Shown: positions 1 through 60,971 of the stretch, piece by piece
Position numbering within the stretch: the stretch's first letter is position 1
How the letters are laid out: each line of letters begins with the position of its first letter
NCBI GenBank assembly: GCA_030407315.1
Contig: JALQPE010000239.1
Location: 1-64,000, forward strand
Reading direction: 5' to 3'
Source of the DNA: Asparagopsis taxiformis
Taxonomy: Eukaryota > Rhodophyta > Florideophyceae > Bonnemaisoniales > Bonnemaisoniaceae
DNA: 64,000 nucleotides
The notes under the pieces: model-generated
Seen by the model: only the letters and a program-made list of their open reading frames with translations
What the model was told of the DNA's origin: nothing
Databases searched by the model: none
Translations under genes and position numbers: made by a program

Positions 1-1
1 A

Positions 2-22400: not shown

Positions 22401-23241
22401 ACTCTGCGGTTGATTTTTCTCCTTCCGAGCTTCGATTGTTCGCATCACTGCGGAATGCTTCAAAGATTGGTCGAGTCTGGACATCTTTCAGAGCCCATGT
22501 GCTTGGGAGTACAATACGAACTTTCGCCATTCCTCCACAATTGTCTCTGTCATCTGTTGTTCCACGGGTTCCTACTGCACCTCGATGCTGTGCAGCTCTT
22601 GCTCCGCTCTTTCGAAGGTCTATCGGAAACTCGATGTCACAGCTCTTTGCATAGCAGTGTTTCCTCAAGAATGGTAGTATCTTCTGTCGCATCACAGAGT
22701 CCGACGGGACGTGCTCACTTGGATCTCTGCGGAAATTCATTCCGAACAGGGTACCTTCATAGTGGGCTCTTGTCATTCTTTGAGTTCCACTCAGCTGAAG
22801 AGCCCCATACATCGCAGGCCATTGTAGTAATGCCTTGAAATCACCACATGCTTCATCCCCAGCATTTCGGTCTATCGGGCCTCCAGTTGAAATGGAATCA
22901 GAACCTCGTCCGGTTGCTTCTTCCGATTCCATTAGCGTGCTCGATGCTACGTAGATGTCACTTCCAGCTTCATCGTTGTTGCTGTACACATCAATACAAC
23001 CTTCTATTGTGTCACCCATAGGGATTGGGGACTCCAATAGGTCATCTGTGGTACACTCACGTCGTAGCTCATTACCTCTCGGGATTTCTTTGTTCATGCA
23101 GGCTGCATCACTGCTGCGGATTTCTCCCTGCAGTTTCCCAGGAAGCTGTTTACTGGTACTGGCCACATTGAGTGAATCGAATCTCGCCTTTGTCCTACGA
23201 CTTGTGGTTTTCTTTCGAATAGGAGTCCGTCTCGGAGCCAT
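19438..23241 (-). CDS. CACTA/Plavaka-like transposase (DDE type)
   Basis: 1267 residues from an ATG. The core matches the layout of CACTA-superfamily (Transposase_21-like) enzymes. LYTDDFEPF at about 541-549 gives the first catalytic Asp. PLNLPPRKRG and VIGLPPPG follow, and GDYPAVSHTLDVLGHTS at about 628-645 gives the second. The CHIC zinc-type motif comes next, and NVHRLVEFCVHTLPAYGS ... FERMHQPLKKG around 910-950 contains the candidate Glu940. The enzyme would cut the CACTA ends and insert the element. Its N-terminal 500 residues contain basic patches (PKRRRV) suited to nuclear import. It is uninterrupted and therefore potentially active. Copies A and B lack this gene although they share the flanking sequence, so they probably depend on it. 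The exact clade is not certain without alignment. Confidence 0.78.
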   Translation of the reverse strand: MAPRRTPIRKKTTSRRTKARFDSLNVASTSKQLPGKLQGEIRSSDAACMNKEIPRGNELRRECTTDDLLESPIPMGDTIEGCIDVYSNNDEAGSDIYVASSTLMESEEATGRGSDSISTGGPIDRNAGDEACGDFKALLQWPAMYGALQLSGTQRMTRAHYEGTLFGMNFRRDPSEHVPSDSVMRQKILPFLRKHCYAKSCDIEFPIDLRKSGARAAQHRGAVGTRGTTDDRDNCGGMAKVRIVLPSTWALKDVQTRPIFEAFRSDANNRSSEGEKSTAECSIEDSFIAKCRRGVLSDPFVRTAVVPIDSDGKKGLKHIYVPDGTAIRIRCHPGARQVAVIERAKGFRKNDRDGGKPKRRRVAVTSLWELHARTIVTYEARHDGEHDVHVEKYLQPRMSHLLEWERQHALRAISQCVIGAGAKGKGTRAGDVITVLLPIGMEEGDIVPHVVLVNRYLKEQVGEASTMLLCFSPGASFAEARNPPDRLGSPNYEEIRVSGVFSDGFGDHRSQWHPASPREDAPCWGKLEDGRNYFVYRFLLYTDDFEPFTSKKGSFGGCYMLPLNLPPRKRGSYQAVRVIGLPPPGVSTNCVLRYIVQDIVRGSTEGFPTKNAEGEDVVVFLDPVGSIGDYPAVSHTLDVLGHTSNSPCHICSFRKYDLSSTGGTKNAYTSVVNGQTSTHARSKYRNASTRKDATETQLRTLGLAAEEGEDLPFHVLSTSLEAVQEEVPKTENGVSVVPAIFDPYRSAVIAPDHLLSGLAQDVLNACISAASPRIREVAELQILGALKKFRMGRQNRLFGNNNLLSMNMSDIFSVLLIAPMAFENAARMMDGKGEGHREKFDGAVKLVVMFQKLVSCISFMPVWWKDGPHEVETADGEGGRNEYILGRTVDYVETLNEYCRKVKGAGAHLDKPNVHRLVEFCVHTLPAYGSVKHVQELIFERMHQPLKKGVRMSNHQSEQLSALELVLADDWQTRVAIVLREIGMEPQHWSSSECSQMVNVLSQELGREIDVEDEVVKNCFQEPVLQLLSQRRGKILSADGEIVTWRGHGGISIDEVKEYMNGKCDMAEGAVGVFKRFFTERYGSGTSGCGKYAEWVRRVSRSTTTEWGRKTVQRSGSLESGAIIHAVCPEQMTCEDGATSQAILYPASRLTSEIMRGRINYEPRFFIVLAFFILRNESARDEQGTAYGVCLGLQKTDEGVFKVEERRRTVIVEMSEGVTEVFGMHYCKGSVCEYDENMREVRHGPGLLEGGEIYALCRRDGFPPRAA

Positions 23242-25042
23242 CTTGATGTTTTTGTTATTTTCTTCTTCGCTCAGTTTTGTTGCATAGAATACAACTCTAA
23301 ACTTCTATGACATGACTACTATCTCAATACAGTACTACTACTTTTAACCGTTACGAAACCTTTCCAGGCTTTCATTCGATCCAATGAACTGGTTCACCAC
23401 AATGCTTTGCCCTATGCTCATTGCTTTATGCACATTGATTGCTATTTCATCCGGACTCAACATCGTTTTGCTATCTTGTATCGCATCCCCTAACCACAAA
23501 CCCAGCCAAGATGTATCCATTTCCGGAAAACGGCCGTTTATTTCGCAGTGATGCTCTAGGCACTAATACTGAATCTGATTTTCTCATACACGTACTTCCT
23601 ACTCGTATACTCTACCATTTTCGGCCCTATTTACAAGTTGAAAGCACAATCTCTCGTTGAATCGTACTCGGTGTGATATCTTAAATTAGCATAAATTTAT
23701 ATATTGCAATGCAGATTCACTGCTCGCTTGCAACATGAAAATTATAAAATTTCTCCCACACTGCTGTTTCCTAGCCGCCCACATCCACGTGGCCCGCTTT
23801 GACTGCCTGCCAAGTGTGCTCAGAGCATGCAATGACGTCATCGATATATACCGTCCAAATCATCACTGGAAGCGCGGACTCCTCGTCCAGGAAAGTGCGC
23901 CATTTTTCCTACTCCTCGCCTCCCCCTTTCCAGTAGGCCCCATATGCTAGTGTTTTTCCTATATTTCTGTAGTGATGACGTCATTATAGACTAGAGAAGG
24001 CGGTAGAAGATACAATAATTTTGCGCCTGTTCTGCCAGGTCATGTGCTTCAAAGCGTAATTCGCACCCTAGGTATCGTTTTTCTGGGCCTCCCATCGCAC
24101 CGCTCCGTTTCAAATTCATCCCTCTATTGTTAGAGTACACGTCATTTCCGCCCGCAGAGTGCTACTTAAACAACAGATTCTGGAGATCCCTGTTTCCATC
24201 TTCATATCCGTCGGAAACAAAGCAACAACCCTGGCCGTGGAAGCCGTATAGATCATCTAAACTGCTTCCAAAGCGTAAGTTTTAGATCATCAATACGGCT
24301 CCCAAGGCCAAAGTTGTTGCTTTGTCTCCGACGGATATGAACCATGATGGTACGTTTCCACAACTCACGCCACTAACCCAGTTTTCTATTCGTTTTCTCT
24401 TTCTCAGGTTTCCAGTCGGTGAGTGTTCCACTTCTACTTTCATTTATCTTTCTCTCTTACCACTTCTCCACTAATTTTCTTTTCTGCCTGTGAGTACATA
24501 TCTCAATTTGGGATGCAATGGTATTTGTTAAGGTACGTTAGTCTCCTAATCACCATCAATTTCCCTCTCCAATTCAACGTCACTAACTTGTTTCCTTTCT
24601 CTACATCATTTTTTCTTCTTCTCTTCATTTCCTAGCTTATTCATGCAGCTCAATCAGTTGATAGATTTCTAGACTTTTCTAGTAGTTTTAGTTTTACTCG
24701 TCGGAATAGTGTTAGTTGTAGTAGCATTTTTAACATAGGGATTGTTTATTCGCAATGTAGCCTGCGCAAATAAACAAATCCAGAGTGAAGCTTCCCATAT
24801 CGCACCCTCTTAGATTGCTACCTATCCTACCGCGTATACCTCTCGCTAGCTCATAGTCACTACGAAATAAAAATTCCTAGCCGTACTATTCTGTCCATTC
24901 CCATATGAATACCGTCCATGCCCCATCCTCATAGCGCTAGAACTGCCTTCCTCTACCCCAGAAAGATGCCCACGACAGCGTGACGCTCCATCTCATCCAC
25001 CACTCCCAGACACCGAATTTTACTATATCAGGACACTACTTT
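23242..25042. other. Transposase upstream region, shared right block of copy C
   Basis: No gene seen. It is homologous to 12240-13940 (A) and 48075-49703 (B). It should contain the transposase promoter, since the gene starts at 23241 reading away from it. Confidence 0.55.
24204..24338. repeat. Long foldback hairpin in copy C
   Basis: Practically identical to the hairpin at 13102-13236 in copy A: about 60-bp arms beginning ATATCCGTCGGA around a short loop. Confidence 0.88.
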
Positions 25043-25252
25043 TACTGTCTCCAGGTGCTGCCCAGGGCAGCACGAAATACTGTCTCCAGGTGCTGCCCAG
25101 GGCAGCACAAAGTACTGTCTACAGGTACTGCCCAGGGCAGCACAAAGTACTGTCTACAGGTACTGCCCAGGACAATGAAAATCACTGTCTCCAGGTACTG
25201 CCCAGGACAGTGAAAATCACTGTCTCCAGGTACTGCCCAGGACAGTGCACCG
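25043..25252. repeat. 35-bp subterminal minisatellite, six units (copy C)
   Basis: Same unit as in copy A, with GTGCTGCCCAGGGCAGCAC-type dyads in the first units and GTACTGCCCAGGACAGTG in the last. It has four fewer units than A and five fewer than B. Confidence 0.92.
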
Positions 25253-25535
25253 TGTTGGTTCCATCTATTGTCCCAGGCAGCGTATTTCACTATCCGGCCA
25301 TGTTGCCTTGGCCAATACAAAACACTATCCGCCAACACTGCCCAGTACAGTAAATTACATCATATCCAACTATTGAATAAATCATTAATTTTTACTGTCT
25401 CCATTCACTGCCTCAGACAGTACTGTGAGACAGTGTTTTTTACTGTCTGCAGACAGTGTTCCGTACTGTCTGCCAGACAGTGCAAATCACTGTCTCCAAG
25501 TGTGGCATTAATTTTCATTTGCCGCATAGTGATTT

Positions 25536-28163
25536 TTACTGTCTCAGAAAGTAAAAATCACTGTCTCGCAGTACTGTCTGAGGCCCCCTTTTCAACACCG
25601 TAGTGCTCACCTCTCTGCCCTCCTCATCGATTTCCACACTCTCCAATAACAACCTGAGCTCAATCGGGGGCAGACAGCCAACCCTCACCGATGCGATGAC
25701 GTCCGCGGGACGCTGCGCCAGATGATGCCCTTCGGCTCGGTCTTTGACTTCGAAATCGTCGGGAAGAGATGGCATACGGTCGTCGAACAGGAGGTCGTGT
25801 TCAGAAGGAGAGTCACGAACGATGTAACCGTCTTCATCGACTTCGACTCCTTCCGGAACAGTGAGTGTAATTGTCACTTCGCGGACCCCCTTGCTTTCGA
25901 CTTGGCCCTCGTCTGCACCCTGTTTGTCTTCCTCGTCCGAAGCGGTATGGACAGATGCTTGGTTGGAGGGAGTCGCACCAGCACGTTGGTTATCTTGGGG
26001 GACAATCTCAACGGCAGAATCGGGGGAACGGGCGGAGTCTTCGTCAACCTCATCACCGGAAGCAGTGGCTTGTTGTTGATCGGTGGGTTTATCAACAACG
26101 GCCTGCTCTTCTTCCCCGGCGGATTGTTGTACCACAACCGGCTCTTCTTCCTCGAGGCGTGTGCTCCCCGTCGAGCGAAGTCGCTGTGAACGGCGGCGGA
26201 TGCCATGCGAAGCAGGCTCATGTTCGACATTCCGCTGCTTCTTGTGAGTGAGTCTCACATTGGCAGCAGAAGGGCGGCGTTTGCGTCGAGCCTTAGTCTT
26301 CTTCTTCAATGTCGGATTGAAAAACTCTTTCAAGTTCGTTTCCAAATCCTGTAAACGCGTGGTTCTCCGTCGCATTCGAACCTCACTGCTCCGGTCGTCC
26401 CCTCTATACATTGCAATGGCATTGGTGAGATGCCATTGCAACTCCTTCGGCTGCTTAACCGACCCAATTGCCATCTCTGTGCTCAGAAATGACTTGCGCA
26501 TAATACTCTTTGGGCGCCCATACGCAGCGTACAGAGAATTTGCTATTGCAGTCACGCGGCGGACGTATGTATAGAAGTCGTTCACGTCAAAGCGTCCATC
26601 CGGACGTCCACCATGAGCAGGGTTCAAGTACTCCGAAAGACCACGCAAGACGAAGACAAAGTTTTCTTCCAGCAACTCGCGCACTATCTTGTGGTCCAGG
26701 TGCGTTATCCCAATCTCGTTGCGGCGCTCGGAATTGTTCAGCTCACGCAACACTTCGTCGAGAACAGGATGCTTCAGCGTTGCTATAGCCAAACGCGTCC
26801 ACCGCCGGGCCGTGTTCGTTGAATTCATCATCCCCATGAACTGCGCCTCGAACAATGTTCGGATGACATCAGACTCACGCAAGTCGCCAGCGTTTTCCAC
26901 GTTATTTGCAACAGCAATCGTACGGATGAACTGCTGGATGGACGACAAGATTCGAACCAGGGAGCGCTCCGTCAGTTGCGTCCCAGTCGTATGGTTCGAC
27001 TCTGCACTCTTGTGGATGATCTCATGAGGCTGAAGATCACTGTCGTCCTTGCGGCGAAGGTAGTACACATCCAGAGGCTGAGTAACCCAGCGCAAGCGGT
27101 TTGCGTCCTGTGGCAGCTTGGTTCTGTGCATACGGGTGAGGCGCGTGAAGTCATCCGCAATGCTATGCATAGCATTGAGACGATGCAGTCCGTCGATCAC
27201 GGTCACGTTCGCATTGGCATGGAATTTGCCATTCTGGAACAGACGCGTGTCGGCGGGCAGATGCGTGTTCTGCGACCTCAGCACCGTCACAGTGATACGC
27301 GAAGAGCTCACATACCCCACAGCCAACATATTGTTGCGCAGGTCCTCCACGTGGTCTTCTTTCACATCCCGAAGGGTCACGGCCGGTTCCACTAGCTGCC
27401 TCACCAACACAGTCGCTCCTTCTCCGACGTAATCCGACGTCACAAACTTGGGCACCGTAATTTGCGTCCCCTGCTGCTCACGAATGCTCTCCGCCACCTC
27501 CGGTTCGTCGTCCACCTCCGTTACGTCCTGCGTAGTAGCTTCGGTGACGTTGGAGCGAGCAGGGTGCTTCGTGCCTCCACTGGAGGGTCTTGCAGAGCGA
27601 GCAGGGCGCTTCGTGCCTCCCGAAACCGGAATGGAGCGTCCTGGATGCTTCGTACCCCCCGAACCAGTGATTTCGCCTGCCGGACCGGTACTGGGCATCC
27701 GTCCCGAGCTGGCCTGGTTCGTCGCTGCGTTGAAGTTTGACGCTGCAGCAGGGATACGAATGTCGCTAGGGCCATCCTCCGCAGCGGGGCGCATCATCCG
27801 AGTATCCCAAGGGTAAAACGCCGCGGCGTATGCTCCACCCATCGTCTCCGGCGGTCCCTCGGCGCCATCAAACATGTACGGGAACGGGAGGTCCTTGAAC
27901 TTGTCCTTAGTCGCAATGTTGCGCACGACGATGTGGTCGGTCTCGTCGGTTTCCGGCAGCTTGTGGTTGTGCAGCGTGCGCGGAAGGCCAACATCGCCAC
28001 CAGCAGTGCTCACCGAAGCCGTCCCAATATGCACAGCCGCACCGTCCACGTCCGCAAACAAGTCAACATCGACGCCGCGCTTGAGTCCGCGCGACTCCGC
28101 TGACGCGCTCACTTGATCGCCGCAAACCGTTGAAAACAAACTGCTGAAATGCGTATCCGCCAT
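25536..28163 (-). CDS. ParB-like domain protein with basic/acidic tail; 3' end supplied by a transposon terminus
   Basis: 875 residues from an ATG in a strong context (ACCATGG). Residues about 160-205 hold three SGGTK-P-RS repeats. A ParB/sulfiredoxin-type domain spans about 261-336, with VTLRDVKEDHVEDLRNNML and the signature VIDGLHRLNAM near 322-332. A helical region runs to about 590. Then come a basic NLS-like block (KKKTKARRKRRP) and a long acidic, low-complexity tail. The last 23 residues are translated from the CACTA terminus of copy C, where the frame meets a stop, so the natural C-terminus has been lost. It shares only the ParB-like core with the protein at 15303-17972. Possible roles are DNA binding or DNA modification, unproven. 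Composition is more GC-rich than the CACTA elements. It is counted as a probably truncated gene. Confidence 0.6.
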   Translation of the reverse strand: MADTHFSSLFSTVCGDQVSASAESRGLKRGVDVDLFADVDGAAVHIGTASVSTAGGDVGLPRTLHNHKLPETDETDHIVVRNIATKDKFKDLPFPYMFDGAEGPPETMGGAYAAAFYPWDTRMMRPAAEDGPSDIRIPAAASNFNAATNQASSGRMPSTGPAGEITGSGGTKHPGRSIPVSGGTKRPARSARPSSGGTKHPARSNVTEATTQDVTEVDDEPEVAESIREQQGTQITVPKFVTSDYVGEGATVLVRQLVEPAVTLRDVKEDHVEDLRNNMLAVGYVSSSRITVTVLRSQNTHLPADTRLFQNGKFHANANVTVIDGLHRLNAMHSIADDFTRLTRMHRTKLPQDANRLRWVTQPLDVYYLRRKDDSDLQPHEIIHKSAESNHTTGTQLTERSLVRILSSIQQFIRTIAVANNVENAGDLRESDVIRTLFEAQFMGMMNSTNTARRWTRLAIATLKHPVLDEVLRELNNSERRNEIGITHLDHKIVRELLEENFVFVLRGLSEYLNPAHGGRPDGRFDVNDFYTYVRRVTAIANSLYAAYGRPKSIMRKSFLSTEMAIGSVKQPKELQWHLTNAIAMYRGDDRSSEVRMRRRTTRLQDLETNLKEFFNPTLKKKTKARRKRRPSAANVRLTHKKQRNVEHEPASHGIRRRSQRLRSTGSTRLEEEEPVVVQQSAGEEEQAVVDKPTDQQQATASGDEVDEDSARSPDSAVEIVPQDNQRAGATPSNQASVHTASDEEDKQGADEGQVESKGVREVTITLTVPEGVEVDEDGYIVRDSPSEHDLLFDDRMPSLPDDFEVKDRAEGHHLAQRPADVIASVRVGCLPPIELRLLLESVEIDEEGREVSTTVLKRGPQTVLRDSDFYFLRQ
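25593..25605. repeat. Right terminal inverted repeat of copy C
   Basis: CAACACCGTAGTG, the inverse of the left terminus at 34842. It lies inside the 3' part of the adjacent minus-strand ParB-like gene. Confidence 0.88.
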
Positions 28164-28509
28164 GGTTGTTGAGTTGGAAAGGAATAGAGATGGTTGACGT
28201 TGACGTATTGGAGTGATGTGGATGGTATGTTTCACGTTGAAGAATGGTCGTGAACGCCAATCGCTGGAAATAATAACACAATAGAAACGAAATTTTGTTA
28301 GGTACACACCTATCGTGACCGCTGGAATGCAAGAGAGGCAATCGAGATGTGAGTGTCCGTTCGGAACGGGCCCGAGTCGGGCTCTCGAAACCTGACGAGG
28401 TGGCGTGAAGCAGGCAGTGTCCTTGATGTGTAATGTGTTAAAATTACAGCTGTCAAGCTAGGCGGCTTTTGGGGCGGCTGCGAGCACCCCGTTTATCCGG
28501 GGAACACCC
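28164..28509. other. Upstream region of the ParB-like gene
   Basis: No gene seen. It lies between the ATG at 28163 and the first inverted-end repeat at 28510 and presumably contains the promoter. Confidence 0.5.
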
Positions 28510-28690
28510 TGATTTGAGTTAAAATTTGGGCTATTCTCAAAAACATGCACATGTGAACATGTTTTTGAGATGGGGGTGTGCCGTACGGCACAAACGACCC
28601 GCTGAAATCAAGGTTTTTTACAATATTTTTGCTGCCCGAAATTCTACAATTTCTGGGCTGGCCAGTAATGCAATAGCTATCTGCTCTAAA
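28510..28690 (+). repeat. Solo copy of the methyltransferase-element terminal repeat
   Basis: It starts TGATTTGAGTTAAAATTTGG, like the element left end at 29693, and contains the same two internal palindromes (an AACATG...CATGTT hairpin and GTGCCGTACGGCAC). Being in direct orientation to the copy at 29693, it may be a remnant of an earlier copy or an alternative left end of a larger element ending at 33840. Confidence 0.75.
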
Positions 28691-29692
28691 CCGATTCTAA
28701 CAAGCAGAAAGAATCCTCTCCTTCATGACCATGCTCTCGAATTGAGTGCAATGCAACGGACTCCCTCCAAGAGAACGACAAAGCTTCGTCTTTTGCAAGG
28801 CATTTCCGTACGAAAAATAATCGAAAAACATATTTGACTTTTAACCTAACAGCTATCGCGAGCACCGTACTCAGCTATATTTCCTCTGTAATTTCCTTCC
28901 TCCAACCAATCAATAGCCGCTTGGTCACAGGCTTAAAAGCCTTCCACTATCTGTCCTATCCATCGAAGACCCTCGGAGGGTTCGATCCAGGCCTTGATCA
29001 CCCATGATGGGTGTGCAACCCGAGAAATTGAAAATGGAACATATTGCGACAGGGACGAGATATCATTCAATGAAAGAGAAGTTCTCTTTCGTTTACTTTT
29101 TTCTAACAAGATTCTAAACGTCTACAAACCCTATGTCATCCGTCCGTTTTCATCCCGGAGAGATGTGGATGTGAGGTAAGACGCAGTGGTGATGTTGTGT
29201 TGATTCCCACAGACGGAGGTGGAGGAGGTGGCTACGGAGGAAGCCTGGAGAACTTCTCCGGTACTGACATCTCACATGTTGAGAACATGTGAGATGTCAG
29301 TACCCATGGATGAGAAGAAACACATGTTCAGGTCCGGTTCGGATATTCTTTCCATTAACGGAGGTGGAGGAGGCTATGGTGGAAGCCTGGAGAAGAATAG
29401 AATATTCCTATACCCATGGATCACAAGAAAACGTTGTTGGGCTCCTTTTCGAAGCCCATTGGTCTCTTGAATAAATTTAGCACCCAAATCATATACGATT
29501 GCCGAGTTGACACCCCGTATGTCTCGTTGGTAGAAATAGCAGGGGTTCCACCACTCAGCTGGCGGGAAGTAGTTACTGATTATATGAGATATGGCTTAGC
29601 TCCCGCCAAAACCGATAGCTCTGGGCTCAGGTTCTCCAAATGTGTTTATACGAATGTGTTCTGACAATGCTAGAAGACGAATATCTGCATCC
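28691..29692. other. Spacer with degraded glycine-rich coding fragments
   Basis: No intact gene. Around 29213-29250 and 29360-29395 two plus-strand pieces both encode GGGGGGYGGSLE-type peptide, as if one glycine-rich reading frame had been duplicated or interrupted. Between them lies the perfect hairpin at 29260-29304. Confidence 0.4.
29260..29304. repeat. Perfect hairpin, 21-bp arms with 3-base loop
   Basis: The left arm GGTACTGACATCTCACATGT(T) is repeated exactly as its inverse after GAG. It sits within repeated glycine-rich coding fragments and is itself free of mismatches, so it is probably young. Confidence 0.9.
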
Positions 29693-30117
29693 TGATTTGA
29701 ATTAAAATTTGGGCTATTCTCAAAAACATGCACATGTGAACATGTTTTTGAGATGGGGGTGTGCCGTACGGCACAATCGACCCGCTGAAATGGATGTTTT
29801 TTGCAATATTTTTTTCTGCCCTGAATTGTAGAATTTCTGGGCCGGACAGCAATGCAACTGAGCTGGACATCCACCGGGCGTCCATTTCAACTTCGTCGTG
29901 TATTTTGCATCTGCACGCATAACAGCATCCAAGCAGTCAGGTTCACTGCTCGGACGAAGTGCACCTGGAGTGTGAACGATTGGTTTTTGACAGGCGAGTA
30001 CTGCTCAATAGGTTTCACCCTGGACTAATGGTGGCTGGACATGCTGCATTATATGATATACTTCAACTCTGGAACGTAGCTTTATTTGTAGTCGAAATGA
30101 AAACATCTTTCGTGACC

Positions 30118-33100
30118 CTAATTCCATGCTCTAAACGCTGTCCCATAATGAACGTAGAGCTCCTGCCCCGGACGGATATCGCGGATTGCACGTACTACAA
30201 TGATCTTCGGATTTTCTAGGTCCTTCGCCTTGAGCTTCTTCCCCGTCGAACCGCTGCTGTAGTTCTCGACAAACTCGACGTTGGCCATCCGCCTGGTGTC
30301 TTCCGCCGGAGTGTCCTCACCTCGCAAATACCGCGGGTCGTTGATGAACTGCGCCGAACAGAACGGAGCCGGAACAATCCAAATTGGATGCTCGATGTTT
30401 TCGTCGTCCTCCGCTGTTGCATACAGCTTGATGGCATACATCAAGAATGTTTCCTTCGTTATCGCCATGTGACCCTCTCCGTACGCGAACCTCATCGACT
30501 CCTTGCTCATATCAGAGTACACAACAGTTCCGTAGTATGCACATACTTCGTCGCCAACATTAAATGTCTGTTCAGCGAAGAGCCCTCTTCCTGCATTTGG
30601 ATGCTTAATCAGCGATGGTCGAACGCTCAATTTTTTCGCAACACAATCGTGTGCCCGCATCACGCGAGGGTTTTCAGTTTGCAACCAGCGGCGCAGGGAA
30701 GGTGGCCAATAATGTACCGGTTTTTCCATGTGCTCGTGCGACGCAATCGACTCTGGGCACAGCTGCCAGAGGTACTGCCGAATATATTTCGGGAACCTCT
30801 GGTACAGGGGAAGGCCAGGTGGGGGTTCGATGATCTTGCGTTCCCTCTGTGTACGCATCGTGACAGAGGGGGACCCCAAGAACTTCTCAGCACTCTGTTT
30901 CGCTTCTGTCGTGACCCTCATGTCAGTGTTGTTTGAAAGAATTACACGTGACATGACTGCACACAGCTTTGGAAGCAATCGTGCCACACACAATTTGTCC
31001 ATGTCACTGCCGACGAAAACACGGTGCTCAGGCAAGCTCATAGCTGCTTTTCCCGTTGCGAAAGTGCCAGAGAATGGATCGACAACAATATCACCAGGCT
31101 GTGAATGCTGGCTGATCAACTCCATCATGAGAGCGACGCTCTTCTGCTCTGCACGAACTCTGACCGTAGCACCGGTTGTGCTCCTTGTTCGCCACACCAT
31201 CTCATTCGAATCGATGGCGGGAATATTGATGGTGACGTTGCACCACGCCGGGTACGTGCCGTCCATGTATCCGTGGTTCCTATAGGCCACCATCTCGCTT
31301 CCAGTCTTGAACGGAACACCTCGCTTCCAGAAGTGGATAGCGACCTCTGCCATGTTCATGCGTTGGTACCTCTTCCGCCCCGGCATTTGATAGAGGTGCC
31401 CAGGTAATCGGACAAACAACAGAGGTACCTCGTCAACGAAGAAAACTGAATTCCGAACGACGTCCTCCTCCTCCTCCTCATCCTCATCCGCACTTTCTTC
31501 GTCACTGTGCTGCGATGCTTCGGAGTCCGAATTCATGGACGTAACCTCTTCTTCATCCGGCCCGTCATCACTGGCAGCAGCATCGGTTGGGCCTTCTGAC
31601 TGCGGTCCTTTGTACGTTTCCAAGTAATGGAACCATTCGTAGAACTGCAAAACGGAGCAGAACACGATGCCGTGGCCACCGGGGCGCAACAGCTCGTCAA
31701 ACACTTCGATGCTAGCCTGCATATCTTCTGCAGTTAGCCTGTCGTACGAAGAGTTGGAATCGTTCCTCTTACGACGAACATTGTAGGGCGGATCAGTCAG
31801 AATGAGCTGAACGTTGCCCGTGATGGGCACGTGTTCTCGGCTCTCGTCGGCACTGACCAAATCTTCGAAAGGGATGTCGTACACCCGGCAATACTGACTC
31901 ATTTTCGAAAGAAAGTCCTTTGCGAGAGCCTGCCCTTCACTTTCCTGCTCTTCTATCGCATAGGGTGACGGTGACGGGGGAGACGGCCCTTGGGCAGTAA
32001 GACTGGTCCTCCCAGGTCCAAGTTGAAGCCTGGTTGTGTGTCTTGTCGACGGAACCAAACCTCTCCCTCCTGTGTTGCGACGAGTGGGAGTGTCATCAAC
32101 CGGCTTGGGGACCTTTTCTGCGTCCGCGGCTTGTGGTGCCGGGCGGAGGACATCCATAACGTCTTCGTCGAGGGTGTCAAAGTACGCTGGCAGCTTGTCC
32201 GGATTTCCGCTTGACAAGTATATTTCCAGCGCCCCCCAGCGGTCGGACTCCGGCCAAGTGTACAGGTCCGGGTTGACGATAAGAAACTGCAACCGGTCGA
32301 AGAACTTCCTCACAAGGTCCCTAAATGCACTGTGCTGCGCACTGGTTCTTGTCTCTACTTTTCCACCATGTCCATCAGGATGAGATAGGGGAGCTTTGTC
32401 GTGGTAGAGATCTAGCTTCTGCTCCATCGGTGCGAATAGACCTTCATCGAGCACGTCAAACCAATGCTCACTGCTGTCGAAAATGATGTACGGCGCCATC
32501 AACTCTTCGAAGCTGGAAAACTTTGCGGCGAAGGCCACATCGGTCCAAGCATGGTATAAAACTTGAACCACGTAACAAGCTCGATTAGTGCTTTTCCGAT
32601 GGGCTGGGACGCGTGCGGCTTCGTTCCCCTCTTCGGCCGCGTCGCCTATTCGGCGACGCGGCAGGTTCTTGTTGTGATTTCGGATGATAGACAACGCTTG
32701 GAAATACATCAATACCTCGAACGTTTCCGGTGGAGCAAGAACGAAGGCGCTTGGTTCCCCGCGCTGCGGCGCCTGTAGTGGCGAAGGAAGCATGTTACAT
32801 CCAATAAGGAAGGTCTGCGGCACGATCCCAGAAAGGATGCAGTGCTCAACCCATTGCCCGATACGCTCATCCTGTCTTGAAAACTCGGCAATCGGTAATG
32901 CCAGACGAACAATCTGCTTGGCTCGCTCAACGTTCATCTCTGCCATGACGATTTCGGCAACATCCGCCTCGACTCCAGTATTCTTCGAACGACCGCTGAA
33001 GGCCATGCTGAGTCGACCTTGCAGCGCCGCAAATTGTTCTTCCGTGCCCTGCGCAACCCAAGCGCCAAGGTCCGCGTATGTGAAACCTCCCGGCTTGTCC

Positions 33101-33213
33101 GTCAAGTCTGCGAAACTTGAGTGGGCGAACAAATCCAGCAAGAGGCGGAGGAAGTCTTTGCCAGCGAGAGTAGTTTCGCGGGCGGCGCGACCTACGTTTC
33201 GACGTGTACCCAT
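30118..33213 (-). CDS. Fusion of a beta-class (bacterial-type) DNA methyltransferase and a SET domain
   Basis: 1031 residues from the first ATG (GACATGG context); the frame is open about 55 codons further up without an ATG. Residues 1-430 are unassigned. The methyltransferase half has LILTDPPYNV with DPPY at 474-477 (catalytic motif IV). GDIVVDPFSGTFATG follows, with the AdoMet-binding DPFSGT at 712-717. Motif IV preceding motif I is the beta-class order found in bacterial N6-adenine or N4-cytosine enzymes. An acidic insert (about 535-575) separates them. The C-terminal 170 residues form a SET-like domain: HPNAGRGLFAEQTF near 870, INDPRYL where NHSC is usual, and GQELYVHYG at the end. SET domains methylate protein lysines. 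The pair could couple DNA and histone methylation in the nucleus, which is an inference. The changed SET motif may affect activity. Confidence 0.75.
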   Translation of the reverse strand: MGTRRNVGRAARETTLAGKDFLRLLLDLFAHSSFADLTDKPGGFTYADLGAWVAQGTEEQFAALQGRLSMAFSGRSKNTGVEADVAEIVMAEMNVERAKQIVRLALPIAEFSRQDERIGQWVEHCILSGIVPQTFLIGCNMLPSPLQAPQRGEPSAFVLAPPETFEVLMYFQALSIIRNHNKNLPRRRIGDAAEEGNEAARVPAHRKSTNRACYVVQVLYHAWTDVAFAAKFSSFEELMAPYIIFDSSEHWFDVLDEGLFAPMEQKLDLYHDKAPLSHPDGHGGKVETRTSAQHSAFRDLVRKFFDRLQFLIVNPDLYTWPESDRWGALEIYLSSGNPDKLPAYFDTLDEDVMDVLRPAPQAADAEKVPKPVDDTPTRRNTGGRGLVPSTRHTTRLQLGPGRTSLTAQGPSPPSPSPYAIEEQESEGQALAKDFLSKMSQYCRVYDIPFEDLVSADESREHVPITGNVQLILTDPPYNVRRKRNDSNSSYDRLTAEDMQASIEVFDELLRPGGHGIVFCSVLQFYEWFHYLETYKGPQSEGPTDAAASDDGPDEEEVTSMNSDSEASQHSDEESADEDEEEEEDVVRNSVFFVDEVPLLFVRLPGHLYQMPGRKRYQRMNMAEVAIHFWKRGVPFKTGSEMVAYRNHGYMDGTYPAWCNVTINIPAIDSNEMVWRTRSTTGATVRVRAEQKSVALMMELISQHSQPGDIVVDPFSGTFATGKAAMSLPEHRVFVGSDMDKLCVARLLPKLCAVMSRVILSNNTDMRVTTEAKQSAEKFLGSPSVTMRTQRERKIIEPPPGLPLYQRFPKYIRQYLWQLCPESIASHEHMEKPVHYWPPSLRRWLQTENPRVMRAHDCVAKKLSVRPSLIKHPNAGRGLFAEQTFNVGDEVCAYYGTVVYSDMSKESMRFAYGEGHMAITKETFLMYAIKLYATAEDDENIEHPIWIVPAPFCSAQFINDPRYLRGEDTPAEDTRRMANVEFVENYSSGSTGKKLKAKDLENPKIIVVRAIRDIRPGQELYVHYGTAFRAWN

Positions 33214-33639
33214 GTCACTAGAATCCTCCCAAGGGCTAGCGGGTTCGCGCAGAATTGGCACGGTTGCGTCGTCAACGATCGGATTGCTGTTGCGCCTGCG
33301 CTTATTCGTCAGAATGGAATGAGTGGAAATTCGGTACAGGATGGCGACCGCTCGGCGAGACAGTCAAATTTGACGACGTATCTCGTGACGTTTGCACTCT
33401 TTCGTAAGGAACACTGGTTGATATCGAACGGAACAGAGTATACGGGTACACAGCACTGGAAAGGTCTTGAAACCCGTAACCGGTGTAGGTAATAAGTTGT
33501 GACGGATACGTGGTAGAGAAAAATTTTAAAAAGATTGTGATTCCCTGTCTTTGAGTGTTGTACTGCACGGCCGCCATGGCGGCTGTGACTGCAGTCACAT
33601 AGGTTGTCACAGGTGCATCACGCTTACCAGGTGAGCGAC

Positions 33640-33840
33640 ATCTGGACGGCCACTGGACATGGGGATGTCCAGCTCAGATGCATTGCTGGCCAGCCCAGAA
33701 ATTCTAAAATTTCGGGCAGAAAAAAATTGTGAAAAATCATCGATTTTGGCGGTCGAAAGTGCCGTACGGCACACCCCCATCTCAAAAACATGTTCACATG
33801 TGCATGTTTTTGAGAATAGCCCAAATTTTAATTCAAATCA
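33640..33840 (-). repeat. Right inverted end of the methyltransferase element
   Basis: Inverse of the left end at 29693-29885, including TGATTTGAATTAAAATTTGG at its outer edge. It is preceded inward by GGACATGGGGATGTCC, related to repeats near 34030 and 51240. Confidence 0.8.
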
Positions 33841-34841
33841 TGGTGTCTAATTTGGCCACAACGGCCCCAGGAACCGGCCGCCGCCCCGATCGGGGCTATC
33901 ACTGGCTTCTATAAGCACCAACTGTAAGCCAAAATCGCGTCTCACGAAGGGTCGATTACAGGCTCAACACGCCAGGGACAGGTCTTGGTCCTTGTTCCAT
34001 CATAGTCCCGCCCCACTCTCTCACGACCAACCTGAAATGGACGTCCGGTGGATGTCCAGCTCGATTGCACTGCTGGTCAGCCCAGAAATTCTAAAATTTC
34101 CGAAAAATCAATTTGGTGGCCCAGCATCTCCTGTGCCGAAAATTCCCGCACTCACTTCTGATATACTATATCGTAGTAGTAGTAGTCTAGACGTGTTTCG
34201 CACTTGTACGCATCAGGGAAAGCGTCACGGAAGGTTGAGACTACGCTACTTGTGTACCGCGTCGTCTGAAATAGCGAGTAGTGTTTGTTGTATAGTTGTG
34301 GAGTATGCGTCTAGTGGTTTGTAAAGCTTGCAGAACGGGATAGGGATGTGGGTGGCCCTATTTTATGAATACATGAGTACCAATATTCAGTGATGACAAA
34401 GCGGAAAGGCATAGGCTCATACAAGTTTGAGATTGCATAGTGGAGAAAATATTTACATCGAAATTTACATGGAACAGATGGAGGTTTTAAGGATGAGGTA
34501 TGAGAGGAAGAAAATTCTTCTGTGGTATGAGGATGTGTTCTGTGGAGGGATGCAATCTTGGGATGGTACAGGGGGAGGTGGAAATGTACCGAGTGCGGGT
34601 TTAGATTGGAGTGTGATTCGGAGAGGAGTGCCGACAAGCATATTATGGGGATTGGGGAGACGCTGCGGGGTGTTGGGGTAGTGAGGGCGGAGGAGGTGTT
34701 TAGGTGGGACCGTAGGAGGGTGCGGTTGAAGGCGCCGAGAGGAGGGGGTTTTAGGAAAGTGAGGAGAAAGAGGGGGAGGGGGTGGCGTCTGTTCTGGCTG
34801 TGGTGAGTGGGGATGTGATGGAGAAGAAGGGGGTTATTGTA
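33841..34841. other. Flank between methyltransferase element and CACTA copy B; no gene called
   Basis: It contains a partial copy of the methyltransferase-element end (34020-34110) and a purine-rich plus strand after 34430. Two overlapping plus-strand frames (34427-34806) are Gly/Arg-rich and lack motifs. The same purine-rich character resumes after copy B at 50443, so B split one composition domain, and possibly one unrecognised gene. Confidence 0.4.
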
Positions 34842-35140
34842 CACTACGGTGTTGGGAATGAAAAAAGACAGTAAATTTACTGTCTGAGACAGTAAAAATT
34901 ACTGTCTGGTCAAGACAGTGCGCGGAGACAGTAAAATTTACTGTCTGGAAATTTCAGAATACTGCTGCAGCAATAAACTGGCACGACATCTGGACAGTAC
35001 CAAAAACAGTAAAATTTACTGTCCAGAACAGTAAATTTTACTGTCCGGAAGTGTTGCCGCCAGACAGTATGTGCAGACAGTACATTTTACTGTCTGAGGC
35101 AGTGCATTGTATTGTATTACTGCACTGTCTGGGGAAATCT
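34842..35140. repeat. Left terminus and subterminal palindromes of copy B
   Basis: The 13-bp terminus CACTACGGTGTTG is followed by repeated ACAGTAAATTTACTGT palindromes, almost identical to 2-300 in copy A. Confidence 0.9.
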
Positions 35141-35914
35141 GTAGACAGTAGTGTAGATAGCAAATTGTATTGTCTGCGGGTAGTACCGTGCATTGGTTGA
35201 CAACACTGTCTGGTGGAGTGGACTTGAGAGGAAGTATGGAGCATGATGTTAGTGTGAAGGTAAATATTGGAATGGTATGTGGTTTACGACTAAAGTGATT
35301 TTGATGGAGCTTTTCAGATATTTGTAGGTAGCAAAGTTAGCACGAGGGAAGATAAGTTCTATAGGAGAGCGTATCGACCGTATTCGGATGGGAATCATGG
35401 TTTATATCACACATAAGGAAAATAGAACCATCTTTGTAACATATGGAATGAATCACTTTTGATGCACGTTGGCAGTGACAGCGACAGTTCGAGTTTGAGA
35501 TTTAGTTAAGTTGATGTAGTAGTTCTGTTAATAGTAAAGTTTTCAATGAGAATAAAGACAATGAATGCCATGAACAAGTACTACACTGTGCTGCTTTCGC
35601 CGCTCAGCCCCACAGAGATGCGGCACGAACATCCTATCAAACCACCCTTTCATTCCTTTGCAATCTTCCACAATCTCATGCCGCCATCATAGACCTCCAC
35701 TCTGACTCTTGTCAGGCACTGGAAAATCTGCTAGTAGTACGTCTCCACGCTACAATCACCTACGCCGAACATGCACCCGATCAACTCTTGTCCCTGCACC
35801 ACAAAACATCACCTTTTTCCCGAGCTTCTCATTCTCGTCATTGCACACCCGAAGAGCTGCTAGTCCTTTACAAACTCTGTGACATTACCCCAATTACTCA
35901 CCAACTAGCTATCC
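35141..35914. other. Start of copy B cargo; no gene called
   Basis: It matches copy A to about 35350, then is unique. A plus-strand frame without ATG (about 35580-35949) encodes a His/Leu-rich peptide and overlaps a more convincing minus-strand membrane exon, so it is left uncalled. Confidence 0.4.
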
Positions 35915-36106
35915 TCACACACCGGTTGACACGAGGACATCCAATATAATTCCGGCAATCAAGAGCTCGTTGTTGGCGTCGGTGCAGCTTGGATAGGCCA
36001 CGAGGCTGTAAAATTGGAGCGCTAGCAGCACGTAGATGCTGAAGAAGAACTCGACTGCGCTTGTTAGGGTGAGGAGCCCGCTTGAGATCAAGAAATAGCC
36101 AATTGC
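35915..36106 (-). pseudogene. Captured exon of an unidentified membrane protein
   Basis: A 63-codon frame between stops, without an ATG, has a long hydrophobic run (LLTLTSAVEFFFSIYVLLAL) followed by an extracellular-like piece with PSCTDANNELL and a second hydrophobic stretch. That is one or two transmembrane segments. The family is unknown. It lies on the same strand as the next fragment, possibly from the same source gene. Confidence 0.35.
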
Positions 36107-36273
36107 TTAACAGTCCATTCCCACTGATTTCAGTCATGACATGTTTCAAAGAAACACCCATTCATCCACCTCTCTTGAAGAAACTTTCCATAACGTCTTC
36201 CACACGTTCAAAAACTCCGCGGAGTTTTTGCGCGCACCGTGCCATGTTTACGCGTTTCCCGCCACGTGTACCA

Positions 36274-36440
36274 TCATCCCATGGGCCCAATAACCGATGC
36301 ACACAAAATCACAGTAGCCAGAGCTCCCACCAGAACCGACGAACTGTGCTCCCTCAACACCACCGGAATGTGTGCCATATCTCCGGTGCGCAGCGCCTTG
36401 CGCCTTTTTCAACAATATCAATCTGCTGGAAACCTACGTC
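36274..36440 (-). pseudogene. Second captured membrane-protein exon
   Basis: A frame without ATG contains LRTGDMAHIPVVLREHSS followed by VLVGALATVILCASVIG, a typical transmembrane helix. The end falls at a TGA. Source gene not recognised. Confidence 0.3.
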
Positions 36441-37261
36441 ACACGAATCTGCCCACTCGCGAAAAATTGACTTTTCCATCACGCAATACCTTGTAAAACA
36501 TCTCAAAGATGCCGCACATCGACGACATCTCTTTCATTCACCCGCGTTATCATTGTTCACTGATATTGTATAAACAGTATGATACGCGCTGTTTGCCGCA
36601 CCACAACCCCCGTAGATACATCTCATTCAAACAACATAGCGCCCAACTCTCCCTGCTCCACCATACACACTTTCTCAACATTTTCTGAGAACCCCTCCGT
36701 ACCACCCCATAAAACATATCATGAAGTTCTTCGTCGGCTCCTTTCAAACAGCGAAGTTCGCTGCCTTTCGTCCTTGTTTCCTTTTCTCTACGCACTCTTC
36801 GCCTACAACCGCCGCCGCCGAGGATGGTAATATGTGGCCAATAAACAACTCAGCACAATGCACCAGACAAACAATAGAGTACACAAAGAAATTGAAATAG
36901 TCTACGCTGATCTCATGTCGATATGTATCCGCATCGTTGGCGTCATTCATTGTTTACAGTTGTTGATTGCGAATGACAGCAAAAAAACCCAAAAAAACGC
37001 GCCCCTAGACGACTATCGAAACCGTCAACACAGCACAGGTACATACGGCTGCATGTGCACACATCACGCCGCCGCTCATCCTATCGGTCGTCATGACGAT
37101 TTGATGCATCAACGTGAGCAAATACGGCGCACCAAAATGTCCACCAATACTCTACAACCATCGCATGTTGCACCGGCAGCATCAGCCGCCAACAAACAGA
37201 AACAATATACGCGATCTACGACAAACGAGCCGCGTGCTACTCCTGTTTCGCATCTTTCGTA
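36441..37261. other. Copy B cargo with no recognisable gene
   Basis: Short frames on both strands show no motif or consistent coding character. Composition shifts to GC-rich toward the TRIC-like pseudogene. Confidence 0.4.
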
Positions 37262-38221
37262 GCGTCATCCCAAACTGGAAATCGAATGGCGCGCGAATAC
37301 GTGACGCCCCTTGCAAGCACTGCGACACCTACACCAGCCTCGACGCGGGCGGCGGGATGCAGCGACAGGTTGCGCACGAAGAGATACGTGGAGGCACCCG
37401 CAGCCGCTGTTGATGCCTAAATCTCCGAATGAATATGCAGAATATGCACATCACGTTTATAAAGCGCGTTGTGAACGGCGCCGACAAATGTAGCGGTCGC
37501 CATACCGCATAGCACGCAGATGAGCGGGTTGAAGCGTGCGCGGAGTCCGTCCTAGGGCCGCGCAGCTGTACGCCGATGACGCAGAAAGCGCCGACTCCCA
37601 GCGCGTCGGTGGCGACAAACGGCGCCGCGTCGGCGTCGTATTGTCGGCATCGTATTGGCGCGGCCAGACCGTGAATGGCGCCAATGATACCAGGATTGAT
37701 TGGGTGAGATACTCCGGTTCAGAGGTCCGGAACGGACGTTTGCAGATGATTAGACCGTCGCGAATCGTGCCGCCGCCCAGCGCGGTCATCGTTCCCAACA
37801 CCACCGCACCCAGCATGTCCAGACCGGTCGCGGCCAGGATACCGCCGGAGTGCGCGAAGAATACTGTGCCGAGATAGTCGAGCAGGCGCAGCGTGCCTAG
37901 CGAGGTGGTGGTGGGGAAGCGCGGGAGACTGTCGTTGATGAACGGTGAAGGCGGGGGCGTCGTGGCGCTTGGGGTGGAGGACGCGTTTCGGGCGGGCGTG
38001 AACGTTTGCAAACGCCAGATTGTCCCTGCGCCATGGCGCAGGGACAATCTGGAGAGGAGGGGCGCGAGAGACGGAGACGCTATATCATGTTTGGAAACTA
38101 CGGTCGGTGAGATTGGAATCTCGATGCGCTGGTGCGGATCCGGGTGGTTGGGTGCTGCGAGTTGTGGGCCGCTTGTTGGATGAGTCCTATGGGGCCTGAT
38201 TGCTGTTGTGTAGCGCTGCAC
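37262..38221 (-). pseudogene. Decayed TRIC/UPF0126-family membrane channel or transporter gene
   Basis: The first family repeat is clear: LRLLDYLGTVFFAHSGG, then GAVVLGTMTALGGGTIRDGL and SEPEYL. After a frame change the second repeat begins with VATDALGVGAFCVIGVQ. After another change come FNPLICVLCGMATATFVGA and the C-terminal helices. A TAG replaces a sense codon near 37414, and no ATG lies upstream. The family forms trimeric cation channels or small-molecule transporters with seven helices in two repeats. A long Ser/Pro/Thr-rich N-terminus suggests an organelle-targeted eukaryotic version. GC content is much higher than in the surrounding transposon, as expected for captured host DNA. A perfect 38-bp palindrome (38015-38052) interrupts the N-terminal part. 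Confidence 0.7.
38015..38052. repeat. Perfect 38-bp palindrome in the TRIC-like pseudogene
   Basis: Arms CCAGATTGTCCCTGCGCCA and its exact inverse with no loop. The low divergence points to recent inverted duplication. Confidence 0.92.
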
Positions 38222-38508
38222 TAAATCGTCTTTGGTGTGGCAGCAAAGCGCTGATTTACGGTCTGTACGAAGAGCAATTGAAATTTATATCAACTCGCCG
38301 CATTCATGCAAAGAGTTGCATCTCGCAATCTTCTTCACGCCCCGTTCCTGCCCTGCATTCAACTAAACCACCTTGACTCTCAACACGTCACTCCAACATA
38401 AAACATTGCCACACAATCCACCAATCCCCCCATTCGCTTGGTGAATAACACAACATCTAATTCTTTCAAAAACATAACATACCCGCTAATCGCACTCTAA
38501 ACTTGTAG
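38053..38508. other. Spacer between TRIC-like and EF-hand fragments
   Basis: It contains the 5' part of the TRIC-like frame up to 38221, then AT-rich sequence. No further gene seen. Confidence 0.4.
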
Positions 38509-38766
38509 TATACATATTCAGACGCTCCAGCGTCGTCGATCGACACAGACCGCTCGAAACAAATTTCGCCGCTCGAGTTGAATAAATGCCTAGCCGGCCT
38601 TGGAATGGACCTCTCCATGGATGAGGTCTCCGCCATGAACGATCTTGCCGTGCTTTCTGGCCGCCCCGGTGACGATATTGGCCCCGATGATTTCCGTGGC
38701 CTTTACAAACGTGTTTCAGACTTCAGGAAGACTAGTACTTTTATAGATATTAATGAAGAGCAGTGA
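38509..38766 (+). pseudogene. Captured EF-hand (centrin/calmodulin-like) exon
   Basis: An 85-codon frame begins after a TTGTAG that could be a splice acceptor, and ends with a natural-looking stop. DTDRSKQISPLE fits a canonical 12-residue EF-hand calcium loop (Asp1, Asp3, Ser5, Ile8, Glu12). ELNKCLAGLGMDLSMDEVSAM then matches the linker helix of calmodulin-like proteins. A second, degenerate loop around SGRPGDDIGPDDF follows. Intact EF-hand proteins of this type have four loops, so this is a C-terminal exon. It has no start codon of its own and is unlikely to be functional inside the transposon. Confidence 0.6.
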
Positions 38767-39101
38767 CTTTTTATGTATCTTACTGCGCTCTGTTCATTGC
38801 CCTGTCGCCTCAATATTGAGGTGTTTTGTACAAAACACCGGACGCTAACTGCGCCGGATTAGTAGTAGGTATCATCTCTGCTCATCGTTTCATGAATTTA
38901 CTCGATAAATCTTGCCGAGGCTTTCGCCGCGCAAATGACCTTAGCAAAACCCTCTTCTTCTACTATATCTTCCACACCCTCCCTTTCTTCATCCCCACTA
39001 CTTCTATTCCTTCCATTTTTCTGCCTTTCTTCACTCCCATTTTCCATATCCATATGTCGCCTCTTCCGGCCTTTTGGTGACTCCTGGTCTTGTTCAACAA
39101 T

Positions 39102-39952
39102 TTATTCCTGTTCATCCATACTGTCTCTCATATCTTTATCTACTACGTTGTCGCCATGCAAACATGATTCTGTCTCAATTGCCCCATCGGTGTCACTCTT
39201 CCCCATCAACACTAACACGTCTTCGTGCGGCACTACAACCGCATCGTTATTGCATGGATCATCACCTCCGTGATGACCACCATTCTCGTGTTCTAATTCC
39301 TCATCGCCGCCTCCCCATTTTACATATACTTCTTCATCATTAGATCTTCTAGTTGCCCCAGTTTCATCACCAAGAATTTCATTACCTTGTACGGTTCCTT
39401 CTTCTTGACAATCGACATCATCATCAACAATTGCAACATCTTCTTCATTCACACTGTTTGCCTCCGGAACACGATCAGCATCAACACCATGTACATCTCC
39501 TGTTACCTTTCTTCTCTCAGGCAACACCTCCGCTTGAGCGAAACCGATTTCAACTACTCTCTCATTAATATCTGCGTTTCCATCAACACTTGCAACGGCA
39601 TTTTCTTTCATATATGCATGCTCCTCAACGCGCTCAGCATTCGATTCAACCCCATCAACGATCGTTGACAACACTCGAGTGCTGCGTCTACAGCCCCATC
39701 AACATCAGGTTCTACATGGTCTTCTACGGGCGCCTGATCGATATCTCCCATATTCGCAACGTCTTCCGACGGTTCTACATCAATACCATTCCGGTTGGCG
39801 ACTACATGCCCATCTCCATTTCTTACTACTGTGTCGTCAAGATGAGAACGCGATTCCCCCTCCGTGAACGACGAGCGAAGGTACTTCATGCTGTTCGTCA
39901 GTTTCAGCGTTTCGCTTATGCTCTTGAATCTAGTCATGGCTCCCTGGTCCAC
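39102..39952 (-). pseudogene. Acidic low-complexity reading frame, frameshifted
   Basis: An upstream part (ATG at about 39937) begins MTRFKSISETLKL and is rich in Asp, Glu and Val. After a frame change near 39660 the same style continues (VDGNADINERVV, then DDDVDCQEE) to a stop at 39102. No domain recognised. The shared composition across the frameshift argues for one broken acidic protein. Confidence 0.35.
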
Positions 39953-40039
39953 CGCTCAGTTCCTGTTGTTCCTCAGCTTCCTGATCGGCATGCTCATATT
40001 GCACAGTGGCTTCATCGAGTTGCGCAGCCTCTATGAGGA

Positions 40040-40410
40040 CGTCCTCAACTGTACAGTTGCCCCTTCACCGTCCCGTGCGATACTTTTCGCCAAATAAATC
40101 AGTCTTCGTTAGCAAACCCTCCACTGCCTTAGCTTGCAGAGACAATTCTTCGTTTACATGCAATACAGCGGCACCACTGGCCAGAGCACATATGAAGTCA
40201 TTCGTTGACGTATCTCCATCAACTGTGATTGCAATTCATGAATTGAAAGACGTTTCTACGGCTCTATTCAGCATACGTTGCCACAACGTCAGTTCAACAT
40301 CAGCATCACAGGTGAAAACGGCGAGCATCATTGCCATGTTGAGATGAATCATTCCGAATCCCTTACACATACCACCGACAGTAATCTTTGTGCCATTCAC
40401 GACATGCTCC
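40040..40410 (-). pseudogene. argJ: Decayed ArgJ fragment (glutamate N-acetyltransferase / ornithine acetyltransferase)
   Basis: KITVGGMCKGFGMIHLNMA, then SFN, a stop codon, ITVDGDTSTNDF and finally IARDGEGATVQL follow the order of the ArgJ core. ArgJ is made as a precursor that cleaves itself before the conserved Thr of the MATML motif, and that Thr is the nucleophile. Here the motif reads MAMML, so the catalytic Thr is gone. An in-frame stop, a frame change and missing N- and C-terminal parts confirm a dead fragment. The normal enzyme makes ornithine and N-acetylglutamate in arginine synthesis. The fragment ends almost at the junction where copy B again matches copy A. Confidence 0.75.
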
Positions 40411-40506
40411 TATGCCACTTCTTTCAAATTCCTCTGCGGGGAATGATCTGGAGTAGTTGCAGGACTTCGGGTGACGGTAACAGACAATAAACTTGTGCGG
40501 GAGGAC

Positions 40507-40770
40507 GGGTTTTCAGGACAAGCTATCGGAACTGTAATTACTCTGTTTTCTTACCCCAAAGTCATCGTTAAGGCGGGTTTGGTTTCTCAGGACAACCTGT
40601 CGGAACTGCTGTTCAGTTTTCTTACAGCAAAGACAGTTTAGCCAGATTGCTTACAGCAAAGTCATCTTAACGATGACTTTGCTGTAAGAAAACAAAACAT
40701 TACAGCAAAGTCATCGTAACGATGACTTTGCTGTAAGAAACCATGGTAAACCAACTTCTCTGTAAGCATC
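40507..40770. repeat. Palindrome cluster B1
   Basis: Counterpart of cluster A1 with half-sites and two dyads instead of four. One dyad has a changed centre (TCATCTTAACGATGA). Confidence 0.88.
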
Positions 40771-40859
40771 TGAGGGGGACTGATGTTTCTCACTCGGGAA
40801 GAAGAAGGAGACGATTTCGGACCCCGCGAAAAAGGCTACAAAGTGGTCTGGAAGAGTTG

Positions 40860-42386: not shown

Positions 42387-42740
42387 GCCGCTTACAGCTG
42401 AGGCAATTCACTAGGGATGCTTACAGCAAAGTCATCGTTACGATGACTTTGCTGTAAGAAAAGAAAACATTACAGTGGGCGAAGGATTTTACCGGGTAAA
42501 AAATCGTGGCTACTGTAATGAAACGTTTACTTACAGCAAAGTCATCGTTACGATGACTTTGCTGTAAGAAAAGGAAACATTACAGTGGGCGAAGAATTTT
42601 TACCGGGTAAAAAATCACCAAGAATTTTTTTGCCGGGTAAAAAATCGTGTCGGCTGTAATTTTTCCTTTCTTACAGCAAAGTCATCGTAACGATGACTTT
42701 GCTGTAAGCATCCCTGGTAAACTGCCTCAGCTGTAAGCGG
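42387..42740. repeat. Palindrome cluster B2
   Basis: Three 39-bp dyads with ACCGGGT-core spacers, bounded by CCGCTTACAGCTGAGGCA and its inverse. Counterpart of A2. Confidence 0.88.
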
Positions 42741-42771
42741 TCTGGCCTCACCCTCTCTCTCATGTCTCTTG

Positions 42772-42798
42772 TCCTCCTAGGAGGATGAAGCTTCATCC
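42772..42798. repeat. Pair of overlapping small perfect palindromes not present in copy A
   Basis: TCCTCCTAGGAGGA and GGATGAAGCTTCATCC overlap by three bases. Copy A near 7001 has only single-copy CTTCCTCATCCC at this place, so inverted pieces were added in B. Confidence 0.75.
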
Positions 42799-60966: not shown

Positions 60967-60971
60967 GAGGC

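Follow-up and report, generated by a model that had tools for sequence, protein, structure and literature searches.

Can one eukaryotic protein carry the domains for writing a mark on DNA and a mark on chromatin, and does its gene travel on a mobile element? The question is raised by a 64,000-nucleotide stretch from the red alga Asparagopsis taxiformis (contig JALQPE010000239.1, positions 1 to 64,000; the window hereafter), in which a single minus-strand gene joins a beta-class DNA methyltransferase (MTase) to a SET domain. An earlier reading of the letters, made without database searches (the sequence-only reading), had described this gene as the cargo of a transposon-like unit. On balance, we favor the view that the MTase-SET protein belongs to a deeply diverged family in which a bacterial- or phage-type beta-class methylase is joined to a eukaryote-type SET domain, mostly behind a helical N-terminal domain, that the gene most likely sits on a mobile element, and that the double mark would protect or regulate this element. 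The gene and its parts are as follows.

30118..33213, minus strand: MTase-SET gene, 1031 residues from the sole early ATG; frame open to 33363; 16 homologous proteins
32062..33213, minus strand: N-terminal helical region, common to most of the family, with no recognized fold; limits are those of the modeled piece, from the ATG
30994..31812, minus strand: beta-class amino-methyltransferase domain (N6_N4_Mtase), residues 484-756, with DPPYN and then DPFSGT
30142..30591, minus strand: SET domain, residues 891-1040, recognized by Pfam profile and motifs

In the list of open reading frames (ORFs), minus-strand 30118..33261 is open for 1047 codons when started at GTG, and the ATG at 33213, the only one within the first 100 codons of the stop-to-stop frame, yields the 1031 residues that the sequence-only reading had assigned to one frame with both enzymes; domain residue numbers here refer to the 1047-residue frame. 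Both Pfam profiles scored above their curated cutoffs, N6_N4_Mtase with 57.2 bits against 26.7 (E 3e-15) and SET with 29.6 bits against 22.4 (E 9.7e-07). DPPYN (motif IV) stands ahead of DPFSGT (motif I, FxGT), which is the permuted order of beta-class enzymes and agrees with the class first proposed, and a long acidic insert separates the two parts. In the SET domain, FIND and ELYVHY supply the active-site Asn and Tyr. No chromodomain was found in the protein, for which Pfam at E ≤ 1 gave only N6_N4_Mtase, SET and UPF0020.

The predicted structures agreed with these assignments. Structure comparison found the S-adenosylmethionine (AdoMet) fold in the methylase part, and the VIA-align match list for the protein was taken up by methylases; with Foldseek, the chains that matched the SET fold were those of SUV420 and SET7/9, at E between 5e-5 and 1e-4. 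The N-terminal region was modeled as a helical module (mean pLDDT, predicted local distance difference test, 71.9; pTM, predicted template modeling score, 0.73), for which no solved or viral structural relative was detected. The best PDB sequence matches of the methylase domain were adenine MTases, and DPPY is the usual motif of such enzymes; the product would therefore most likely be N6-methyladenine (6mA), with N4-methylcytosine (4mC) less likely. The closest solved sequences to the SET domain were KMT2C/KMT2D and SETD8, which is no more than suggestive of a histone substrate.

The fusion is not confined to the window. Among 5.8 billion proteins, 7993 candidates were scored and 16 passed the cut-off of E ≤ 0.001; one of them, P0001, was 98% identical to the window protein over the whole length, and the other fifteen covered 41-89% of the query at 27-34% identity. 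With E ≤ 0.1, the N6_N4_Mtase profile matched 16 of the 16 homologs and the SET profile 15. In the alignment, the Gly-Thr pair of motif I was present in all 16, the SET Asn in 15, and DPP[YF] and the SET C-terminal Tyr in 14 each. The methylase, SET and N-terminal parts have diverged together: across 14 members (excluding P0009, which lacks the N-terminal domain, and P0016, which lacks SET), pairwise identities correlated between methylase and SET (r 0.48; 0 of 5000 permutations as high), between N-terminal domain and methylase (r 0.585; 0 of 5000) and between N-terminal domain and SET (r 0.369; 6 of 5000). Over 1065 aligned positions, the window copy showed 27 differences to P0001, including a gap of one residue, and no stop. 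Fifteen differences lay in the first 470 residues, eight in the methylase region, two in the linker and two in the SET region, a spread that is consistent with constraint on the enzyme domains and is not a dN/dS (nonsynonymous to synonymous rate) test.

The repeats around the gene, which bear on its mobility, are listed below.

29688..29900, plus strand: left inverted repeat; its outermost bases, at 29693, are TGATTTGAATTAAAA
33663..33846, minus strand: right inverted repeat, pairing with the left repeat
28504..28673, plus strand: third repeat copy, oriented as the left repeat, about 90% identical to each other copy
34022..34100, minus strand: partial (inner) copy, a repeat fragment

The inverted pair (29693-29872 against 33840-33663) was 91.1% identical over 180 columns (E 4e-66) and tightly frames a single gene. 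The terminal 21-mer of the repeat matched the window three times at up to 3 mismatches; 100 shuffles gave a mean of 0.00 matches. The framing repeats of the sequence-only reading were thus recovered, but the pair is not unique, since a third copy and an inner fragment are also present, and the framed unit begins at about 29690 instead of 30118. CACTA-type elements flank the framed interval: one has its right end at 25605, the other its left end at 34842. In every full copy, a near-palindrome TCTCAAAAACATG...CATGTTTTTGAGA is followed by the palindrome GTGCCGTACGGCAC (29718-29753, 28535-28570 and 33780-33815); judging from their sequence, these could be hairpins or protein-binding sites.

If these elements are put together, a mechanism can be proposed. 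The N-terminal domain, joined in one relative by a fused DGxHR region, would bring the protein to DNA, where the methylase would write 6mA or, less likely, 4mC. The SET domain would add a methyl group to a lysine close by, most probably a histone lysine, and the two kinds of mark, on DNA and on chromatin, would thus be set jointly. Most likely a mobile element carries the gene, and the DNA of this element would be protected, or its expression state set, by the double mark. A broader form of this proposal, which we hold as a tentative possibility, is a widespread eukaryotic transposon-borne "dual writer" that would mark adenine in element DNA and a nucleosomal lysine, giving its own copies a coupled state (escape from silencing, or dosage control), perhaps with a ParB/DndB-like partner as guide, which one relative has in fused form.

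Several observations weigh against the favored interpretation. The target-normalized TM (template modeling) scores of the Foldseek rows for the SET domain were only 0.32-0.39, a PDB search with the single window sequence gave SET chains only at E 0.25 or worse, and the precomputed Pfam column listed SET for only 7 of the 16 homologs, which shows how weakly much of the family matches this profile. The canonical NHSCxPN motif is missing from this domain, which has FINDPRY ... ANV instead; we therefore regard it as a SET-superfamily domain, not a textbook one, and do not file it under a canonical KMT family. One or both domains might be catalytically inactive, acting instead as binding modules for DNA or histones; IND in place of NHS would allow this, and catalytic motifs are altered in P0003 (EPPS), P0013 (DPPL), P0010 (Phe for the SET Tyr) and P0016, which keeps the methylase and has lost the SET motifs. 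The first two keep SET with changed methylase motifs and P0016 shows the reverse; some lineages may therefore be able to separate the two activities. However, most family members keep the catalytic motifs, P0001 has DPPY, FSGT and both SET residues (Asn and Tyr), and the 27 differences of the window copy miss all four; we consider loss of activity in one or both domains distinctly unlikely. That a gene-model or assembly artefact joined two genes is next to impossible; nothing was found in its favor, and it is contradicted by the single open frame in the raw sequence and by the homologs, which rule it out: 14 of the 15 diverged homologs, as well as P0001, match both profiles at E up to 0.1. The frame is a single one, as first read.

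The points against mobility come from the unit itself, and they equally suit a host gene. The three full repeat copies are about equally diverged (90.0-91.1%), and the framing pair may for this reason be incidental. A target-site duplication was not found at 16 offsets (-3 to +12) in two pairings, with only one 2-base match, and Pfam recognized no transposase domain, either in the MTase-SET frame or in 10 others that lie within the unit or next to it, shorter frames lying outside that scan. An internal transposase is needed only by an autonomous copy of a terminal-inverted-repeat transposon. Accordingly, of the transposon-like unit first described, the framing repeats stood, and a target-site duplication and a transposase domain between them were not recovered. 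The repeats and their framing speak for an element, and the third copy and these two negative results against it; we therefore grade the gene as probably element-borne and not as "a transposon". In the rival explanation, the protein is a host or long-domesticated dual chromatin writer whose gene stays in place within a repeat-rich region, each repeat being a dispersed copy independent of the others; the in-step divergence of the domains would fit this as well. Against it stand the tight framing of one gene by the inverted pair, the transposon ends on both sides of the interval, and the P0001 cluster, whose 13 member sequences fit a multicopy gene but may be several assemblies. We judge the immobile host gene rather unlikely. 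It is very unlikely, in turn, that the gene came from, or is part of, an integrated giant virus or virus-like element, the alternative source named by the sequence-only reading. The best PHROG for the protein was a DNA methyltransferase family (7.4e-17), and Foldseek against BFVD matched separate giant-virus and phage methylases (Pandoravirus, a Megaviridae sample) and separate giant-virus SET proteins, with no fusion. The IMG/VR scan with the window protein gave no match, however, and that with the family profile gave 23 viral loci matching the methylase region only; a hidden Markov model search of their available stretches showed the family SET or N-terminal domain in 0 of the 23, within the limits of the collection and of scan sensitivity. 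Nor was a viral hallmark found above cutoff in the twelve window frames scanned with Pfam, one sub-cutoff DNA_pol_viral_C (E 0.024) falling in a retroelement-like frame. A giant-virus origin was rejected, as the stretches covered by the IMG/VR scans and the BFVD fold searches show separate enzymes only.

In a tree of the 16 family methylase domains and 21 viral rows, all family members fell on the same side of a branch supported at 100/100. The length filter had removed two of the 23 viral loci (L020, L022), L019 and L021 were represented by a second, weaker frame, and several viral branches were long; since the viral rows had been picked for sharing a peptide pattern, no donor can be named from the tree. 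A prokaryotic source of the whole fusion was also rejected, a GTDB scan with one peptide pattern having returned 33 matches and no relative. We infer that a phage or bacterial methylase was joined to a eukaryote-type SET domain inside eukaryotes. The copia-like integrase (rve), the CACTA-type elements and the SET affinity all speak for eukaryotic DNA in the window.

One neighboring gene may bear on this system.

25536..28163 (923-codon frame to 28307), minus strand: DGLHR ORF beside the MTase-SET gene, ParB/DndB-like by eye; element membership tentative

It lies about 2 kb from the MTase-SET stop on the same strand, and its DGLHR motif is presumably of the kind found in ParB/DndB-type proteins. 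No relative was found at E ≤ 0.001 among 7995 scored candidates, and DndB and GmrSD_N appeared only as sub-threshold Pfam hints for the window's other ORF, not for this one. The end of a CACTA-type element (25605) covers the last codons of the ORF, so the original C-terminus is probably missing. The relative P0011 carries a DGAHR region (residues 24-100) ahead of its N-terminal domain, methylase and SET, with weak sequence similarity to the ORF (E 0.22). This arrangement hints at a functional link to MTase-SET, and the ORF is possibly its partner gene.

Other features of the window are listed below.

1-14643, 14644-25605 and 34842-50442: CACTA/EnSpm-type elements, typed by ends CACTACGGTGTTG...CAACACCGTAGTG, with many ACTGTC subterminal repeats
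15303-18086, minus strand: 927-codon frame, DGSHR (ParB-like) near its start and HxD...H near its end
10223-11432 and 46595-47266, minus strand: short frames inside two other CACTA-type copies, by eye interrupted relatives of the dioxygenase-like frame at 15303-18086
19438-23304, minus strand: frame of 1288 codons that resembles a transposase by eye (SPCHIC motif); Pfam at E ≤ 0.5 gave no match
37460-38284, minus strand: Gly_transporter frame (PF03458, 5.8e-16), within 34842-50442
51150-53789 (minus), 55990-59890 (plus) and 60717-64000 (plus): retroelement-like frames, one with a copia-type integrase by Pfam rve (5e-13), the remaining two judged by eye alone

Like the "ESTA" lineage (PMC12730594), the span 34842-50442 is flanked by TA at each end. 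At 44132 there is another candidate right end of a CACTA-type element, likewise followed by TA; the first base of the window lies a few bases inside another CACTA-type copy, and the left end of the element at 14644-25605 was not found. The Gly_transporter frame is either a captured host gene or a sign that 34842-50442 is not one element. The end of the 15303-18086 frame looks by eye like a 2-oxoglutarate dioxygenase; the whole frame had no Pfam, NCBIfam, PHROG or PADLOC match, and its end had no PDB match. The 19438-23304 frame adjoins a 2.3-kb end block of which the window has three copies.

Crosstalk between DNA and histone marks normally runs through separate writers and readers. One conserved protein with both catalytic domains would make the coupling physical, and it could be tested in one purified molecule. 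MTase-SET would enlarge the short list of DNA-marking systems that eukaryotes have taken from bacteria, and it would be a new example of mobile DNA with its own chromatin-modifying tools.

Among known systems, CcrM, M.BceJIV and DpnA are bacterial beta-class adenine DNA methyltransferases, from which the MTase-SET protein differs by its long acidic insert; we know of no SET domain and no such N-terminal domain in enzymes of this type. SETMAR, a SET domain fused to a mariner transposase in primates, shares the union of SET with a transposon-derived domain and is without a DNA methylase. SET-bearing and DNA-methylase-bearing mobile elements are known separately, and among the matches listed in searches of open-licence papers no report was found of a DNA methylase joined to SET. 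The HarbingerS and MuDR (Phytophthora) DNA transposons are cited as carrying a SET histone methyltransferase (PMC12730594, introduction); they are alike in having a SET gene on a DNA transposon, with no DNA methylase fusion mentioned in that part, whereas no transposase was recognized in the MTase-SET unit. Retrotransposons also carry DNA methylases, namely DIRS with a Dam-like adenine MTase and LINE/DIRS with DNMT (PMC5890265), which share mobility and a DNA methylase with the present case but are retroelements with other methylase classes, no SET being mentioned in the available text. MetB, a bacterial-type N6-MTase in fungi that writes asymmetric 6mA (PMC13297926), is likewise a bacterial adenine methylase acquired by eukaryotes, but it is a host gene of the PF02384 family, and the part available mentions no SET. 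The TET/JBP dioxygenase transposons, including EnSpm and ESTA, carry a mobile DNA-modifying enzyme thought to counter silencing (PMC12730594); theirs is a different enzyme that removes a mark, whereas MTase-SET would write one. In N4CMT of bdelloid rotifers, a captured N6_N4 methylase is joined to a chromodomain, a histone reader, and writes 4mC, acting for the host against transposons (PMC8885841), whereas in the present family the partner of the methylase is SET, a presumed writer, in place of the chromodomain reader.

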